Program-made: the position numbers and the translations under genes | The notes under the pieces: generated by a model | Told to the model about the DNA's origin: nothing | Database searches by the model: none | What the model saw: only the letters and a program-made list of their open reading frames with translations | Source of the DNA: Syntrophomonadaceae bacterium | Lineage (GTDB): Bacteria; Bacillota; Syntrophomonadia; Syntrophomonadales; Syntrophomonadaceae | NCBI GenBank assembly: GCA_012522955.1 | Contig: JAAYJK010000108.1 | Location: forward strand, 1-38,995 | Length of the DNA: 38,995 bases | Direction of reading: 5' to 3' | Shown: piece after piece, positions 21,859 through 34,445 of the stretch | How the letters are laid out: each line of letters begins with the position of its first letter | How positions within the stretch are numbered: the first letter of the stretch is position 1

Positions 21859-24066
21859 ATGATGAATAGGATCATATTTATTTCCAATCGCTTACCAATA
21901 ACGGTTAAAACAGGAGAAAATGGCTTTGAGTATCATGAGAGTATAGGCGGACTGGCCACCGGCTTAAAAAACTATCACCAACAGTCGGGCAGTATTTGGA
22001 TCGGATGGATGGGTTTGGCCGATGATGAAATTACCCCCGAGGACAGCAAGCTTATTCACCAGCAGCTTAAAGATGAGTATAAATGCTTACCTGTTTTTAT
22101 ATCCAAGCAAGAAATTGATGAGTATTATTATGGATTCTGCAATAACACCATCTGGCCTCTTTTTCATTATTTCACCGATAAAAGCGAAAACGACATGCTA
22201 ACCTGGCAATCCTATCAGCAGGTTAACCAGAAATTCTTTGCAGTACTTGAAACTATTATTGAAGAAAACGACATCATTTGGATACATGATTATCAGTTGA
22301 TGTTATTACCTCAGCTGATTAAAGAAAAGTATCCCCAGACCCAAGTAGGCTTTTTTCTCCATATACCTTTCCCTTCTTTTGAAATCTTCAGATTATTGGT
22401 ATGGCGTGAAGAAATATTATTGGGCCTTTTAGGAGCAGATTTGATAGGTTTTCACACCTATGAATACGTACGTCACTTTTTGAGTAGTGTACGCAGACTA
22501 TTGGGATTGGAGCATAATTTTAATAAAATAGATTATGAGGGAAGATCCATTTTGGTTGATGCCTTTCCTATGGGCATTGATTATGACTATTTTACCCAGG
22601 ATTACACTGAATATGTGGGACATGAAATCGCAGAGATTGCCTTTCAATTAGATTCCAAAATAGTTTTGTCAGTGGATAGACTGGATTATACTAAAGGAAT
22701 TCGGGAAAGAATAAAAGCCTTTGGGGTTTTTCTCGAGCAGTATCCGGAGTATCATGAGAAAATAAGGTTTTATCTTATTGTGGCCCCATCCCGGGAAGAG
22801 GCGGATTCGTATATTGAATTACTAAAAGAAATTCAAGAATTGATTAGTAAGATAAATGGCAAATATGGAACCCTTAACTGGATGCCGATCTGGTTTTTCT
22901 TCCGCTCTTTCAGTCAAGAACACCTGATCTATTTTTATCGCCATGCCGATGTTATGTTGGTTACACCCCTGCGGGATGGCATGAATCTAGTGGCCAAAGA
23001 ATACATTGCATCCCGAACTGATTACCAGGGCATGCTGATAATCAGTGAAACTGCCGGGGCAGCCAGTGAATTATCTGAAGCCCTTATAGTCAATGTGCAT
23101 AATTTGGATGCTATAGCTGAGGCTATCAAAAATGCTCTGGAAATGCCTCCGGATGAAAAGAAGGCCAGAAACCAGATGATGCATAAACGTTTACAGCGTT
23201 ATAACGTAAAATTCTGGGCTCGTGAGTTTCTGAGCACCTTAAAGGCCATCGTAGCCGATTCGAATCAAAGTATATTGGCTAAGGATTTAGAAAGAGACAG
23301 TAATAGAATCGAGCATGCCTATCGATATTCGCAAAAGCGAGTCCTGTTTTTAGATTATGACGGTACTCTGGTGGGTTTTAAATCCATTCCTGATCAGGCC
23401 AAGCCAGATCAGGAACTACTAAAATTGCTGTCTGATTTGGCCAATGATCCGAAAAACACGGTGGTGATTGTTTCTGGACGGGATAAATATATCCTGGAAG
23501 AATGGTTTGGAGATCTTGATCTACATATTTTAGCCTCGCATGGATTGTGGCTGCGTCATCCCCAGGAGAAAGAGTGGATCATGACCACAGCTTTGGATAA
23601 TGACTGGAAAGAATCGGTTCGGCCTATATTAGCATTGTACACTGATCGCACCCCTGGTTCCTTTATTGAAGAAAAAGACTATTCCATGGCCTGGCATTAT
23701 CGAAAATGTGAACCGGATATGCTGGCAGTTAAATTGGGTGAGATAAGGGAGAATCTTATGGGTCTGACCCGTTCTACCACCCTGGGGCTTCAGGAAGGCA
23801 ACAAAGTGCTGGAAGTTAAAGACAGTCGGGTCAATAAGGGATATGTATCCTCCTTGTTTATTCAGCATAGTGATTTTGATTTTGTACTGGGAACTGGAGA
23901 CGATTATACCGATGAGGATTTGTTCTTATCCCTGCCCCCAGGTTCTTTTTCGATTAAAATTGGAATAAATAGTACCAACGCCAAATACCAGTTAAGATCC
24001 TGGCAGTCTATGCGCAGGCTGCTAAACAAATTGGTAAATATAAGTAAAATCAATCAGGTACAGTAG
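21859..24066 (+). CDS. Trehalose-6-phosphate synthase/phosphatase fusion
   Basis: 735 residues with two enzymes in one chain. Residues 1 to about 465 are a GT20 trehalose-6-phosphate synthase: GGLATGL (29-35), WIHDYQLMLLP, VDRLDYTKGI and PLRDGMNLVAKEY. Residues about 490-735 are a HAD-type trehalose-6-phosphate phosphatase: FLDYDGT with the nucleophile D499 and D501, IVSGR, and GDDYTDEDLF. Together they make trehalose from a nucleotide-glucose and glucose 6-phosphate. ATG ATG occurs at the start; either could be used. It is the first gene of a three-gene operon, 8 bp ahead of the GH65 gene. Such fusions are known but less common than separate otsA and otsB. Confidence 0.94.
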   Translation: MMNRIIFISNRLPITVKTGENGFEYHESIGGLATGLKNYHQQSGSIWIGWMGLADDEITPEDSKLIHQQLKDEYKCLPVFISKQEIDEYYYGFCNNTIWPLFHYFTDKSENDMLTWQSYQQVNQKFFAVLETIIEENDIIWIHDYQLMLLPQLIKEKYPQTQVGFFLHIPFPSFEIFRLLVWREEILLGLLGADLIGFHTYEYVRHFLSSVRRLLGLEHNFNKIDYEGRSILVDAFPMGIDYDYFTQDYTEYVGHEIAEIAFQLDSKIVLSVDRLDYTKGIRERIKAFGVFLEQYPEYHEKIRFYLIVAPSREEADSYIELLKEIQELISKINGKYGTLNWMPIWFFFRSFSQEHLIYFYRHADVMLVTPLRDGMNLVAKEYIASRTDYQGMLIISETAGAASELSEALIVNVHNLDAIAEAIKNALEMPPDEKKARNQMMHKRLQRYNVKFWAREFLSTLKAIVADSNQSILAKDLERDSNRIEHAYRYSQKRVLFLDYDGTLVGFKSIPDQAKPDQELLKLLSDLANDPKNTVVIVSGRDKYILEEWFGDLDLHILASHGLWLRHPQEKEWIMTTALDNDWKESVRPILALYTDRTPGSFIEEKDYSMAWHYRKCEPDMLAVKLGEIRENLMGLTRSTTLGLQEGNKVLEVKDSRVNKGYVSSLFIQHSDFDFVLGTGDDYTDEDLFLSLPPGSFSIKIGINSTNAKYQLRSWQSMRRLLNKLVNISKINQVQ

Positions 24067-24074
24067 GTGATTAT

Positions 24075-26381
24075 ATGCAAAATACAGCCTCGTTTTACGA
24101 GTTGGTCAATTACCCTTTAGATAGATATCACTTGAATCTAAATGAGGTCCTCTTCCACAATGCTAATGGTTATATAGGAATTCGATACGATTTCGAAGAA
24201 GGTTATCCGGAGGAATATAACTTTACCCCCAGTCAATATATTAATGGTTTTTATGACTATGCCATACTGCCCCAGGCCGAAAAATTATATGGTCTGGCCG
24301 ACGAAAAGCAAAGTATATTAAACATAGCCAATACCCAAACTATCAAGATAAGTTGGGCTGGGGAATATTTCAGCATGTTTAGCGGAACCTTATTGGAAAG
24401 CAAGCTTTCCCTGGATATGGAACGAGGCCTAACCCTGAGACAGGTCAAGTGGCGTTCTGAATCCGGGAAAGAAATAGCCTTAAGGGTTACTCGTATGACT
24501 TCTTTTCATCAACTTCCCCTGTTCACTATTGAATATGAAGTGGAACCTTTAAATTTTTCCGCTCCCTTAGTTATTGAATCGATTCATGATGGAGCGGTTC
24601 TAAACTATGTCAATCCTGCCGATCCTCGAATAGCTGATGAATGTATCCAGTATCTCACTCCGGTGAGCTGCGAAATCAAGGATGGAGCATCTTATATTAC
24701 CTCTAGAACCTCCAGCTCAGGCTTAGAGCTTTGCACTTGCGTGAAGAACCAGCTTTTTAATGAACACCAGCAAGAGTTTATAGTAAATAATGATGAAGCT
24801 GTTTGCAAATATGAAATCAAGGCCCAAGCAGGCAAAAAAATCAGGCTGGTAAAATATGCGGTATTCTGCGATTCTATTCGTTACCCCAACTGTAAACAAC
24901 AAGCAGAACTAGAGATAAAGCAAGCTCTTTCTATGCCGCTGGAATATCTGTATCAAAAACAAACCGACTATCTAAGCGCTTTTTGGCATAATTGCATGGT
25001 TGAAATCCAGGGTGATATAGCATTGAATAATGCTATTCACTTTAATTTATACCAATTGATTCAATCTGTAGGCAAAGACCCGTACAGTAATATTGCACCC
25101 AAGGGTTTAAGCGGAGATGGCTATGAGGGCCATTATTTCTGGGATTCCGAAATGTTTATTCATCCTTTTTTCACCATTACCAATCCTTCGATTTCCAGGG
25201 CCCTTATCCAATACCGTTATGCTACCCTGGATATGGCCCGGGAAAACGCTAGAATTATGGGGCATAAAAAGGGAGCCCTATATCCCTGGCGAACTATTAT
25301 GGGCCGTGAGTCTTCCGGCTTTTTCCCGGCCGGTTCAGCTCAATACCATATTAATGGCGATGTTGCTTATTCTATTATCGCTTATTATCTGGTCACCAAA
25401 GATATAGCTTTCATTGCGCAGGCTGGGGCGGAAATTATTTGGGAAACCGCTCGTTTGTGGCTGGATGTGGGCAATTTTCATAAAGGGCAATTCCATATTA
25501 ATGGAGTTACTGGGCCTGATGAATACACCTGTATCGTAAATAACAACTATTATACCAATGTTCTGGCCCAATACCACTTGAACTGGGCGGTAAAATTCTA
25601 TTATTTATTGGAAAGCTCCCAATGCTTAAGGGAATTGGAAGCGAAAATTCAAATAGAACTATGGGAAATTAAAGAATTCCAGCAGGCGGCCGAAAACATG
25701 TACCTGCCTTATGACCAAAACCTGAAAATCAATCCCCAGGATGATTCTTTTCTGCAGAAGAAGGTGTGGGACTTAGACAGCATTCCTAAAGATAATTTTC
25801 CTTTGCTCTTATATTACCATCCGCTGCATTTGTATCGTCATCAAATATGTAAACAGGCAGATACGGTTATGGCACATTTCATCCTAGAGGACGCTCAATC
25901 TGAGGAAACCATGCTAAACTCTTTTAAATATTATGATAAAATCACCACCCATGATTCTTCACTTTCCCCTTGCGTTTATAGTATTATGGCTGCTCGACTG
26001 GGAATGGAAGACCTGGCCTTCAATTATTTTAAAACTACCGCTCGATTGGATCTTGATAATATGCACAAAAACACTCCGGACGGTATTCATACCGCCAATA
26101 TGGGCGGCAGTTATATGGCCATAGTCTATGGTTTTGGAGGGTTTAGGCTTAAAGAAAAGGGAATATCCTTCGCCCCCATTATACCCCAACCATGGACTGC
26201 TTATAGTTTTAAGATATGCTTCGAAGACAGCCGCATATTAGTTCATGTTAATAAACAGCAATGTATTTTCACTCTGGAGTGCGGTAGTGAGAAAAATATA
26301 CTGGTATATGGAAAAGAATATCTATTAAATGATCAACTGCTTATACCGGAAAGCCTAATGAATGAAAGGAATCTGCAATGA
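24075..26381 (+). CDS. GH65 glycoside phosphorylase (trehalose or related alpha-disaccharide)
   Basis: 768 residues, typical of GH65 inverting phosphorylases (maltose, trehalose, kojibiose types). The general acid is E483 in VTGPDEYTCIVNNN. The phosphate-binding signature is THDSSLSP with the following SIMAARLG. An N-terminal beta-sandwich (about 1-260), helical linker, (alpha/alpha)6 barrel (about 310-690) and small C-terminal sheet fit the family. It releases beta-glucose 1-phosphate, the substrate of the beta-phosphoglucomutase encoded next. Given the otsAB fusion upstream, trehalose or trehalose 6-phosphate is the best guess for substrate; kojibiose or maltose cannot be excluded. Confidence 0.88.
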   Translation: MQNTASFYELVNYPLDRYHLNLNEVLFHNANGYIGIRYDFEEGYPEEYNFTPSQYINGFYDYAILPQAEKLYGLADEKQSILNIANTQTIKISWAGEYFSMFSGTLLESKLSLDMERGLTLRQVKWRSESGKEIALRVTRMTSFHQLPLFTIEYEVEPLNFSAPLVIESIHDGAVLNYVNPADPRIADECIQYLTPVSCEIKDGASYITSRTSSSGLELCTCVKNQLFNEHQQEFIVNNDEAVCKYEIKAQAGKKIRLVKYAVFCDSIRYPNCKQQAELEIKQALSMPLEYLYQKQTDYLSAFWHNCMVEIQGDIALNNAIHFNLYQLIQSVGKDPYSNIAPKGLSGDGYEGHYFWDSEMFIHPFFTITNPSISRALIQYRYATLDMARENARIMGHKKGALYPWRTIMGRESSGFFPAGSAQYHINGDVAYSIIAYYLVTKDIAFIAQAGAEIIWETARLWLDVGNFHKGQFHINGVTGPDEYTCIVNNNYYTNVLAQYHLNWAVKFYYLLESSQCLRELEAKIQIELWEIKEFQQAAENMYLPYDQNLKINPQDDSFLQKKVWDLDSIPKDNFPLLLYYHPLHLYRHQICKQADTVMAHFILEDAQSEETMLNSFKYYDKITTHDSSLSPCVYSIMAARLGMEDLAFNYFKTTARLDLDNMHKNTPDGIHTANMGGSYMAIVYGFGGFRLKEKGISFAPIIPQPWTAYSFKICFEDSRILVHVNKQQCIFTLECGSEKNILVYGKEYLLNDQLLIPESLMNERNLQ

Positions 26382-27025
26382 AATATAAAGCCATCTTATT
26401 TGATTTGGACGGAGTAATTTGTAATACCGATCAATTCCACTACTGGGCCTGGCAGCAAATAGCTGATGAAATTGGGGTTCACTTCGATGAGAATATTAAT
26501 AACCGCCTGCGGGGAGTTAGTCGCAAGGAGAGTCTGGATATAATTCTGGAATCCCATTCCCCGAAACTTAATGAGGCTGAAAAAGAGTATTATTTAAATA
26601 AAAAGAACGATTTATACCGGGGGCTGCTTAAGCAGATGTCACCTGCCGACCTGAGTGCCGAGGTAAAAGAGACTATGGATAGACTCAAATCTCAAGGCAT
26701 TCTTTTGGCTATAGGTTCCTCCAGTAAAAACGCTCGGCCTATCTTAAAGCAGCTGGGACTGGAGAATTATTTCCATGCAGTATCGGACGGAACCAACATA
26801 AGCCGCTCCAAACCAGATCCAGAAGTGTTTTTAAAAGCCAGTGAATATCTGGCTATTGCACCTGAATTCTGTCTAGTAGTCGAAGATGCCAAATCCGGTA
26901 TAGAAGCAGCCCTGGCCGCTAAAATGGATTGTGCGGCCTATGGAAACGGGACCAGCTATAATCTGGCTCATTATAATTTGGAAAAGATTACTGATTTGCT
27001 GCCCATTGTGCTTAGCAGGAATTAA
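26378..27025 (+). CDS. pgmB: Beta-phosphoglucomutase
   Basis: 215 residues, a HAD-family enzyme. The nucleophile motif FDLDGVICNTD (8-18) has the two aspartates and the DGV(I)xxT(D) typical of beta-phosphoglucomutase. GSSSKNARPIL and the VVEDAKSGIEAALAA motif complete the active site. It converts beta-glucose 1-phosphate to glucose 6-phosphate. It overlaps the GH65 stop by four bases (ATGA), so the two are coupled. Confidence 0.93.
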   Translation: MKYKAILFDLDGVICNTDQFHYWAWQQIADEIGVHFDENINNRLRGVSRKESLDIILESHSPKLNEAEKEYYLNKKNDLYRGLLKQMSPADLSAEVKETMDRLKSQGILLAIGSSSKNARPILKQLGLENYFHAVSDGTNISRSKPDPEVFLKASEYLAIAPEFCLVVEDAKSGIEAALAAKMDCAAYGNGTSYNLAHYNLEKITDLLPIVLSRN

Positions 27026-27079: not shown

Positions 27080-27349
27080 TTATAATACTTTAACAGAAAA
27101 CTTTTCGTTAACTAGCTCGGCCTCCAAAAAGACATTCAAGAGTGACTGGGCATATTCTCCAAGGTAGCCATCAAGCTGTTTTCTGTTGATTATGGTTACC
27201 TGAATAGGTTCACTTATGCTGCTCAGGATATCCCACAGAGCATCCAGGTTCCTCCCGTAATAATCAGGTAAATTTAGCTCCGAGGCTATATATATATGGC
27301 TTGTTTCCATGCTGGTCATTTTTTGGCCATCCAAAGTGATGATTCTCAT
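27080..27349 (-). CDS. Barstar-family ribonuclease inhibitor
   Basis: 89 residues, the length of barstar. The inhibitory helix is conserved: LPDYYGRNLDALWD (27-40). D36, W39 and D40 match barstar D35, W38 and D39, which plug the barnase active site. The VFLEAEL segment (73-79) matches the second contact helix. It should bind and neutralise the barnase encoded immediately upstream, whose stop lies only two bases before this ATG. No signal peptide, so it acts in the cytoplasm. Confidence 0.9.
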   Translation of the reverse strand: MRIITLDGQKMTSMETSHIYIASELNLPDYYGRNLDALWDILSSISEPIQVTIINRKQLDGYLGEYAQSLLNVFLEAELVNEKFSVKVL

Positions 27350-27351
27350 TA

Positions 27352-27828
27352 TTACTCCTCCGAGAAAGAAATTCGGGAAAACGTCTTGTAATGGTCCTGA
27401 GTGTAGTAAATTAGCCCGTCATTGGAAAAGACTAAGCGCTCTGCGCCTCTAAATCCCCCATCATAATTCACATCACATTCATACCAAATCCTCCCTTGGG
27501 CATTTGGTAGCTTACCCTCCCGGTTTCCGAAAATGTCTCCACCGATACTCATTTTATCACTTACATCCCACAGATTTCCCTCACTGCTTTCCCAACCCAG
27601 GTCTGAAGCTTCCTTTTTAGTTAAGTAGTTTTTAGGCAGCTGCTGGTACTTATTAATATACAGAGCTACCTCATCTGGCTTAGAGTATCTACCCTCTTTT
27701 TCAATCTGAATGGATCTGGTTTCTTCTGTTGAATTAGTATCATTTGGTGTACTTGAATTACCGCAACCATTTGTAATAAATAGTAGGGTTAATAAAAACA
27801 ACAGCAATAACAGAATTTTGTTTTTCAT
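27352..27828 (-). CDS. Barnase-family ribonuclease with lipoprotein signal
   Basis: 158 residues. An N-terminal hydrophobic segment (5-18) ends in ITNGCG with C22 as the probable lipidated cysteine (the -3 position is unusual), followed by a Ser/Thr/Asn-rich linker (23-45). Residues 48-158 are a full barnase domain. All active-site residues are present: K71, R103 (in NREGKLP), the general base E117, R127, R131 and the general acid H146 (in DHYKTF), matching barnase K27, R59, E73, R83, R87 and H102. It should cut RNA. It was probably meant to stay anchored to the outer face of the membrane. Barstar is the next gene, two bases away. Confidence 0.92.
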   Translation of the reverse strand: MKNKILLLLLFLLTLLFITNGCGNSSTPNDTNSTEETRSIQIEKEGRYSKPDEVALYINKYQQLPKNYLTKKEASDLGWESSEGNLWDVSDKMSIGGDIFGNREGKLPNAQGRIWYECDVNYDGGFRGAERLVFSNDGLIYYTQDHYKTFSRISFSEE

Positions 27829-28120
27829 TGTAACTCCTTATGATAATAGTAGTTTAGATAACTTGACCCAGAGTCTTCCAGTCCGGGCTTGCTTAATCCG
27901 GCACGGTCTTAATCCCAGCTGCTGTCAAGAGTTCTGCATATTCTACGGTAATACCTTTAAATCTGCATGCTTTAATATCTAATAATACAAAATTAGCATA
28001 CTTTATACTTGTTTATCAATATTATATTGGCAATAATGTATTCAGTAGGAATTTGTTATTAGATGTAGAAATCAAGTGTATATGCCTTAAATAATATCTA
28101 GGCGATGGGAGTGTTTGTAT

Positions 28121-29692: not shown

Positions 29693-30946
29693 ATGAGTAT
29701 TGGATATGCTTGTCTAACCGTTGGTGTGCCCAACACTGATATGAAAAACTGTTTGCTTAAAAACGCCGATGAAGAAAAACTAACCCAACTCATTGAGCAT
29801 AATTTATCGGCTCTACAACACATAATTAATTATAATGTTGCAAATGAAATCCTTCTTTTCCGGATCAGCTCCGACATCATACCCTTTGGTTCAAGCCCGG
29901 TCAATACCCTTCCATGGAAAAATCTCTTTCAGCAGGAGCTCCAAATCATTGGAGAAAGTGTCAAAAGAGCCGGTATTCGCGTTTCAATGCATCCAGGACA
30001 ATATACAGTGTTGAATTCTCCAGACCAAGGAGTGGCCAAGCGGGCAGTTGATGATTTGATGTATCATTCTGACTTTTTGGATTCTTTGGGAGTCGATGGA
30101 ACGAGTAAGATTATTCTCCACATCGGTGGAGCTTACGGCGACAAAAAAGTAGCCATAAAGCGCTTTGCCCAGCGCTATAAAGATCTGGATGAATGTATTC
30201 AGCGGCGACTGGTAATTGAAAACGACGATAAAACTTACCACATCGGAGATGTTCTGGAGCTGGGTTTCAGCCTTGGAGTCCCAGTGGTTTATGACAATCT
30301 TCACAACCAGATTAATTATTGCGATCAAAGAAAAGACGATTTTTATTGGATCTCACAATGCAGATCGTCATGGAAGCCAAGAGACGGCAAGCAAAAAGTG
30401 CATTATTCCCAGCAAAATCCATTAAAAAGCGCTGGTTCTCATTCCGAGAGTATTGCTATAGATGAATTTCTGGATTTTTACTTAAGGTTGGGCGAAAGTC
30501 AACCGGACATCATGCTGGAAGTCAAGGATAAGAACCTTTCGGCCCTTAAATGTATCAATTGCACGACACAAAAGAGAAATATAAAGGTTCTGGAGTTGGA
30601 GTGGAGCAAGTATAAATACGCTATTCTGGAGAAATCGCCCAAAGATTACAAAAACATCAGGGAACTGCTTAAAGATAAGTCCACTTACCCAGCAGTGGAC
30701 TTTTACCGTACTATCGACCATGCATATGGGCAAGGGCTTTTTCAAGGGAACATCGTCAATGCCGCCTTACATATTTGGGGATATTTTAAGAACCTGGCCA
30801 ATAATGAAGAAAGGAAACGTTTCTTTAGTCTATTGCAACGCTACCAAGAAAATGACGGGGCTATTGCTCCAGTAAAACGCTTCCTTTTTAGGTTAGCGGA
30901 GAAATATAAGCAGGAATATTTACTGATGTCTTATTACTTTTTGTAG
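29693..30946 (+). CDS. uvsE: UV damage endonuclease (UvsE/UVDE family)
   Basis: 417 residues. The N-terminal 290 residues are a UVDE TIM barrel: IGYACLTVGVP start, RISSDIIPFGS, SMHPGQYTVLNSP, IILHIGGAYGDK, VIENDDKTY and VVYDNLHNQI carry the His/Glu/Asp ligands of the three metals. The enzyme nicks DNA 5' to UV photoproducts and abasic sites, starting an alternative excision repair. The last ~120 residues (about 295-417) are longer than in minimal enzymes and look helical; their role is unknown. GAGGTG lies 5 bases before the ATG. Single-gene unit. Confidence 0.93.
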   Translation: MSIGYACLTVGVPNTDMKNCLLKNADEEKLTQLIEHNLSALQHIINYNVANEILLFRISSDIIPFGSSPVNTLPWKNLFQQELQIIGESVKRAGIRVSMHPGQYTVLNSPDQGVAKRAVDDLMYHSDFLDSLGVDGTSKIILHIGGAYGDKKVAIKRFAQRYKDLDECIQRRLVIENDDKTYHIGDVLELGFSLGVPVVYDNLHNQINYCDQRKDDFYWISQCRSSWKPRDGKQKVHYSQQNPLKSAGSHSESIAIDEFLDFYLRLGESQPDIMLEVKDKNLSALKCINCTTQKRNIKVLELEWSKYKYAILEKSPKDYKNIRELLKDKSTYPAVDFYRTIDHAYGQGLFQGNIVNAALHIWGYFKNLANNEERKRFFSLLQRYQENDGAIAPVKRFLFRLAEKYKQEYLLMSYYFL

Positions 30947-31057
30947 CAGCGACCCTGCATTCCCCGGTTGTAGTTATGCAAAGCATGTCCAAAGGCATAG
31001 CATCCTTGTTACCCACTTAATGATTTCTATAAATTATTTTTGTGATTATTGACCATA

Positions 31058-31552
31058 TTAGTATTTGATAAATTTTGTCCCCGGAACACCACAGATGCTA
31101 CATTTTTCTGGAACGAATTTTTCAATATTTCCGCAGACGGGGCAGAGATAATAGAATACTTCTTCACTCTGGTCAAGGTTGTCTAATGCCTCCTGATAAA
31201 GTCTCGCATGAACCTCTTCAGCTTTCATGGCAAATTTGAAAGACAGTGCTGCAGCTTTATTTCCTGCGGCTTCAGCTTCCTTGACAAAGTCAGGATACAT
31301 ATCCTTATACTCGTGGGTTTCTCCTGCAACTGCATCTTTAAGGTTATCCGCTGTTGAACCAGTTTTTCCTGCAACTTCAAAATGTTTTAAGGCATGCAGA
31401 GTTTCAGCATCAGATGCAGCCTTGAACAGTTTGGCTGCATTAATCTTTCCCTCTTTCTCTGCTTTCTTAGAATAAGCCAGATACTTTCTGTTTGCCTGAG
31501 ATTCTCCAGCAAATGCCTCCATCAAGTTTTCAAGTGTCTTGTTTTCACTCAT
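31058..31552 (-). CDS. rbr: Rubrerythrin
   Basis: 164 residues. The N-terminal four-helix di-iron domain shows FAGESQANRKY and AKAEEVHARLYQEAL-type helices with paired Glu/His ligands (AFAGE, KAEEVH). The C-terminal rubredoxin-like domain (about 131-164) has CPVCGN and CSICGVPG. It reduces hydrogen peroxide with electrons from rubredoxin or ferredoxin in anaerobes. AAAGGAGCG lies before the ATG. It is the last gene of the perR-katG cluster on the same strand. Confidence 0.95.
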   Translation of the reverse strand: MSENKTLENLMEAFAGESQANRKYLAYSKKAEKEGKINAAKLFKAASDAETLHALKHFEVAGKTGSTADNLKDAVAGETHEYKDMYPDFVKEAEAAGNKAAALSFKFAMKAEEVHARLYQEALDNLDQSEEVFYYLCPVCGNIEKFVPEKCSICGVPGTKFIKY

Positions 31553-31633
31553 TTTTTTCGCTCCTTTTTCTTGGCTTGATTAATTTGCACTACATTGCTT
31601 AATCTTATGCCTAATACTACATTTACTCCTAAT

Positions 31634-34445
<2,812 letters not shown>

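Follow-up and report, generated by a model that had tools for sequence, protein, structure and literature searches.

A barnase-family and a barstar-family gene side by side

The window, that is, the whole 38,995-nucleotide stretch of DNA that was analysed, carries on its minus strand a gene for a barnase-family ribonuclease of 158 amino acids plus stop (27352..27828), predicted to be a lipoprotein, and directly downstream on the same strand a gene for a barstar-family inhibitor of 89 amino acids that lacks a signal peptide (27080..27349). Both assignments come from Pfam, phmmer and structure models, and these are the sole copies of each gene in the genome. The ribonuclease gene is preceded by a directly readable ribosome-binding site, AAGGAG, which lies 5 nt before its ATG (27834..27839, minus strand). 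Its product begins with a signal peptide, residues 1–21 (MKNKILLLLLFLLTLLFITNG; 27766..27828, minus strand), delimited by direct reading and by alignment with the signal peptides of homologs. There follow Cys22, the predicted lipidated +1 residue of a TNGC lipobox (27763..27765, minus strand), a flexible linker of residues 23–51 that is rich in Ser, Thr and Asn at its start (27676..27762, minus strand), and the catalytic domain of residues 52–153, placed by alignment (27370..27675, minus strand). A prior sequence-only reading had recognized a barnase here, together with a hydrophobic segment ending in NGCG and a Ser/Thr/Asn linker, all of which can be read directly; the span it gave for the domain, 27352–27828, is that of the whole gene, and it left the minus strand unstated.

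The similarity to the barnase family far exceeds what chance would give (PF00545, 73.8 bits; curated cut-off 24). Among solved structures the best phmmer match of the domain is binase (1buj, E = 1e-37, no gaps), and the alignment with barnase is likewise ungapped (E of about 1e-37). With an offset of 44, barnase residues K27, R59, E73, R83, R87 and H102 correspond to K71, R103, E117, R127, R131 and H146, so that the six active-site residues had been numbered correctly, and the equivalents of K27, E73, R83, R87 and H102 are invariant in 100 of 100 aligned barnase sequences. The structure model matches barnase 1bns in Foldseek with E = 1e-14, a TM score of 0.95 on target length and an rmsd of 1.2. 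Its confidence is low at residues 23–29 and at about 20–45, and linkers of a similar kind but of variable length occur in the homologs. Sequence, predicted fold and comparison with relatives thus support a probably active ribonuclease, as had been proposed, with a predicted preference for guanine.

The inhibitor is equally well placed in its family (PF01337, 71.7 bits, cut-off 23.4; phmmer against known barstar, 1.6e-9), and its model (pLDDT 97.6) superposes on barstar chains with a TM score of 0.9. Residues Y30, N34, D36, W39, D40 and E76 occupy the positions of the barstar contacts Y29, N33, D35, W38, D39 and E76; the inhibitory helix and its contacts are therefore present, including the DxxWD motif (D36, W39, D40) whose integrity the sequence-only reading had noted. 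It was also right that barstar is the next gene, since 2 nt separate the barnase stop from the barstar ATG. The barstar ribosome-binding site, GGAGGAG (27355..27361, minus strand, direct reading), lies inside the last barnase codons just before the stop, from which we infer that both genes are probably translated from one transcript. At this locus neither sigma-70 promoters nor PhoP-type boxes were found above chance.

A likely lipid anchor

The signal region has a basic start (K2, K4), a hydrophobic core from residue 5 and the residues TNG before Cys22, and it thus shows the basic n-region, hydrophobic core and cysteine at about position 15–35 that are expected of a lipoprotein. The published mean position of the cysteine is 21.4, against 22 here. 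Of the lipobox residues, Gly at −1, Thr at −3 and Ile at −4 are allowed by the published Gram-positive lipoprotein motif G+LPPv3 (PMC13068155), but Asn at −2 falls outside it. Because the motif fails, we call this barnase lipoprotein-like, and the assignment rests on its homologs. Cys22 shares an alignment column with the lipobox cysteine of 12 of 19 aligned homologs, and the four nearest (L027/L031, L028, L004 and L030), which belong to the same family, all have their lipobox cysteine in that column. A further relative (L032) has the lipobox MNGC. The genome was sampled as 40 stretches, and the 477 kb examined contain 14 other lipoprotein candidates. All of these have Gly at −1, whereas Thr at −3 and Asn at −2 occur in none of them; GCG is common among them at the lipobox site.

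The genome encodes both Lgt (PF01790, 214 bits) and LspA (PF01252, 129 bits), and the search found no Omp85. This combination makes an outer membrane unlikely, and a lipoprotein would then sit on the external side of the cytoplasmic membrane. Together with the cysteine column of the relatives, it backs the membrane anchoring that had been proposed and makes it likely that Cys22 is lipidated.

Distribution and form of the relatives

We surveyed relatives with one genome per species; at least 569 were found, and the best 80 named ones were examined. In 70 of these 80 the next gene downstream, on the same strand, is barstar; in two from Erysipelotrichaceae (L088, L105) the open reading frame after barnase encodes two barstar-like halves in one protein; in two the contig ends after barnase; and in six, whose active sites are intact, no barstar is adjacent. 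Barnases that have a lipobox and an intact active site but lack an adjoining barstar are found at L037, L067, L073, L081, L090 and L100; at the last two of these, the gene that follows codes for a large hydrophobic protein instead. A lipobox followed by a linker is present in about 54 of the best 80 relatives, 51 of which pass the G+LPPv3 tetrad. Some 20 of the 80 carry a hydrophobic membrane segment that lacks a cysteine, and in a few the cleavage site is of the AxA type, which argues that the family does not depend on lipidation; the membrane segment is kept in most relatives even where the cysteine has been lost. The nearest named relative is on a contig of a Syntrophomonas sp. (L031), in support of the placement made by the sequence-only reading. 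The sequence-only reading had regarded the arrangement as unusual, a view that does not survive this survey: a lipobox barnase with a directly downstream barstar is the commonest form among the best 80 of at least 569 relatives.

A PF00545 gene occurs in 19 of 398 sampled Bacillota genomes. A search of the Syntrophomonadaceae for the pair, which the sequence-only reading had recommended, found barnase in five of 54 genomes and barstar in the same five. All four other genomes of the window's genus lack both. A barstar without a barnase was not seen in the 54 family genomes except at a contig edge in a sixth genome (G018:C161:3-570), where two tandem barstars (L140, L142) stand and anything upstream is out of view.

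Covariation of the two partners

The barnase–barstar complex is a classic model of protein–protein recognition that is known mostly through the secreted enzymes of Bacillus. Across 88 linked pairs the divergence of barnase and that of barstar are correlated (Mantel r = 0.34; the largest value in 999 permutations was 0.16). In an unbiased scan of the linked pairs L003–L110, which ignores kinship, barnase position 59 with barstar position 38 ranks first of all column pairs, and barnase 59 with barstar 76, again with kinship ignored, ranks fourth. R59–E76 is a known barnase–barstar contact (PMC4207830). Among 100 sequences, 58 have Arg at barnase position 59 and 38 have Tyr there; Trp at barstar 38 goes mainly with Arg at barnase 59, the alternatives at barstar 38 being Tyr or His. 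This pattern suggests a natural re-specification of the inhibitor interface, although in a tree-corrected analysis of the 59–38 covariation too few branches were supported, and shared descent may also explain it. The window's own pair carries the Bacillus-type interface (R59, W38, E76), and inhibition like that of barnase by barstar would therefore be expected. The surveyed relatives supply many natural inhibitor pairs whose interface residues are altered.

Genomic context

No gene besides barstar is common to the 86 loci compared, and the third largest cluster of neighbors consists of antisense shadow open reading frames; a conserved gene neighborhood was thus rejected, as nothing beyond barstar recurs. 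Among the ten neighboring genes a Pfam scan found no delivery or defence genes. Carriage by phage was rejected, since barnase had no match in phage records or viral contigs, and so was carriage by plasmids, since the four records matched in the plasmid collection are 0.6 to 4.1 Mb long and three of them are chromosome-sized. A link to HerA-type ATPases was dropped as well: a HerA_C gene adjoins here, but a cluster of related ATPases is found at two distinct loci only. The adjacent HerA gene is also absent from the other four genomes of the genus, so that an empty site is not definable there.

Elsewhere in the window, a fused GT20 trehalose-phosphate synthase/phosphatase, a GH65 phosphorylase and a HAD phosphatase stand in a row on the plus strand (21859–27025) and likely form a trehalose or disaccharide cycle. 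A UvdE endonuclease fused to DUF1722, a rubrerythrin and a catalase-peroxidase are encoded at 29693–34044, in a presumed strict anaerobe.

Possible functions of the pair

We favor the hypothesis, with a probability of about 0.65, that the two genes form a minus-strand unit comprising a lipid-anchored barnase that acts on RNA outside the cell and a cytoplasmic inhibitor. The ribonuclease precursor would be exported by Sec, Lgt would lipidate Cys22 and LspA would remove the signal peptide, leaving the mature enzyme tethered to the outer face of the cytoplasmic membrane through a linker of some 30 residues. At that site it would cleave RNA after guanine, most likely RNA from other cells or from lysed kin. 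Translation of the shared transcript would yield barstar immediately after barnase; barstar would stay in the cytoplasm and would protect the producer by blocking any ribonuclease that folds before export or re-enters the cell. The biological use is the least certain part of this proposal. Judged from the sequence and the models, an extracellular RNA scavenger appears to fit the anatomy of the protein better than a contact weapon does, and we place RNA degradation or scavenging somewhat ahead of antagonism; the modest preference for extracellular RNA digestion arises because it needs nothing further.

A first alternative is a toxin–immunity pair for conflict between bacteria, in which the tethered ribonuclease would enter touching cells by delivery or by uptake, and barstar would be the immunity protein of the producer and its kin. 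The patchy presence of the pair (five of 54 family genomes, none of the four others of the genus) and the toxin-first gene order, which Zhang et al. 2012 regard as incipient polymorphic toxins (PMC3482391), keep such a reading alive. The two tandem barstars of the sixth family genome would also accord with it, as would two fusions in which the barnase domain follows a longer N-terminal part: a long hydrolase-like region in L010 and a long helical region in L025, each with an adjoining barstar. A contact weapon, however, needs a way into its target, and the 158-residue barnase consists of signal, linker and ribonuclease only, with no delivery, repeat or secretion-system domain; nor were secretion genes found among the ten neighbors. 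The lipid tether would limit its reach, no partner gene is common to the 86 loci, and the barnase-free genomes of the family, bar the one contig edge, contain no orphan barstar. Most relatives are, moreover, not syntrophs. The contact-dependent weapon suggested by the sequence-only reading thus found no support here, and we consider toxin–immunity a possible but rather unlikely explanation.

A second alternative concerns the anchor itself: the barnase might carry a plain signal peptide or an uncleaved anchor and be secreted or membrane-embedded without lipid. The off-consensus lipobox, with Asn at −2 and Thr at −3, and the related loci with non-lipidated membrane segments would be in keeping with this, but the exact placement of Cys22 in the lipobox column of its closest relatives and the frequency of GCG at the same spot in the genome's other lipoprotein candidates argue against it, and we regard it as distinctly improbable. 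Least likely of all is that the anchored ribonuclease guards the surface of the cell that makes it, with RNA phage as one conceivable target, or clears biofilm RNA, a role for which a tether that holds activity at the cell surface and a membrane segment retained in most relatives, even those without the cysteine, would be suited but near which the Pfam scan recognized no defence genes among the ten neighbors.

Returning to the anchored ribonuclease with its cytoplasmic inhibitor, the survey suggests that anchored barnases with linked inhibitors are common in gut and anaerobic Firmicutes. It is conceivable, if doubtful, that the tethered form with linked barstar is the main natural form in Bacillota and the secreted Bacillus enzymes a derived minority. 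Tethering itself would then be under selection, with several lineages having exchanged the cysteine for a membrane segment that stays uncleaved, and the partners would change at R59/W38 as in a surface weapon whose specificity evolves.

Comparison with known systems

Contact-dependent inhibition and polymorphic toxin systems place the immunity gene directly after the toxin, as does the window's pair with its 2-nt gap, but they also have either a trafficking or filamentous domain at the N terminus of the toxin or secretion machinery linked to it; the window's barnase has no such domain, and no delivery genes were found among the ten neighbors scanned. Zhang et al. 2012 report linked barnase–barstar pairs to be widely distributed (PMC3482391). 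Their simple pairs share the toxin-then-immunity order and the short stand-alone ribonuclease, and differ in that lipid anchoring is not mentioned in the searched parts of that text. We found no description of a lipid-anchored barnase in the open-access literature, which is weak evidence of absence.

Other linked pairs have been recorded. In Geobacter metallireducens the barnase and barstar genes are numbered adjacently (PMC2700814), and in Bacillus licheniformis balifase and the barstar ortholog YrdF are encoded in a single operon, an arrangement then considered unique (PMC5021464). The claim of the sequence-only reading that the genes are unlinked in Bacillus thus holds at two Bacillus-type loci (L018, L019), where there is no barstar within 1.5 kb of barnase, and is not general given the balifase–YrdF operon. 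That operon likewise joins a ribonuclease to a barstar-type inhibitor (PMC5021464), but balifase is soluble, secreted and induced by phosphate starvation, whereas the window's locus lacks PhoP-type boxes above chance. With barnase and binase, the guanyl-preferring N1/T1 ribonucleases of Bacillus (PF00545), the window's protein shares the ungapped domain, the catalytic residues and the predicted fold; it differs in having a lipobox and linker where they have a cleaved secretory signal and a propeptide.

Further counterparts are the lipobox barnases of other Bacillota, among them those of Syntrophomonas sp. (L031), Sedimentibacter saalensis (L049) and Paenibacillus xylanexedens (L086), which likewise have a lipobox signal, a linker, a barnase domain and a barstar directly downstream; the lipobox of these relatives is mostly more canonical, and their linkers differ widely in length. 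The window's pair is thus itself an ordinary example of an arrangement that is common in Firmicutes and of a gene pairing that has already been described.
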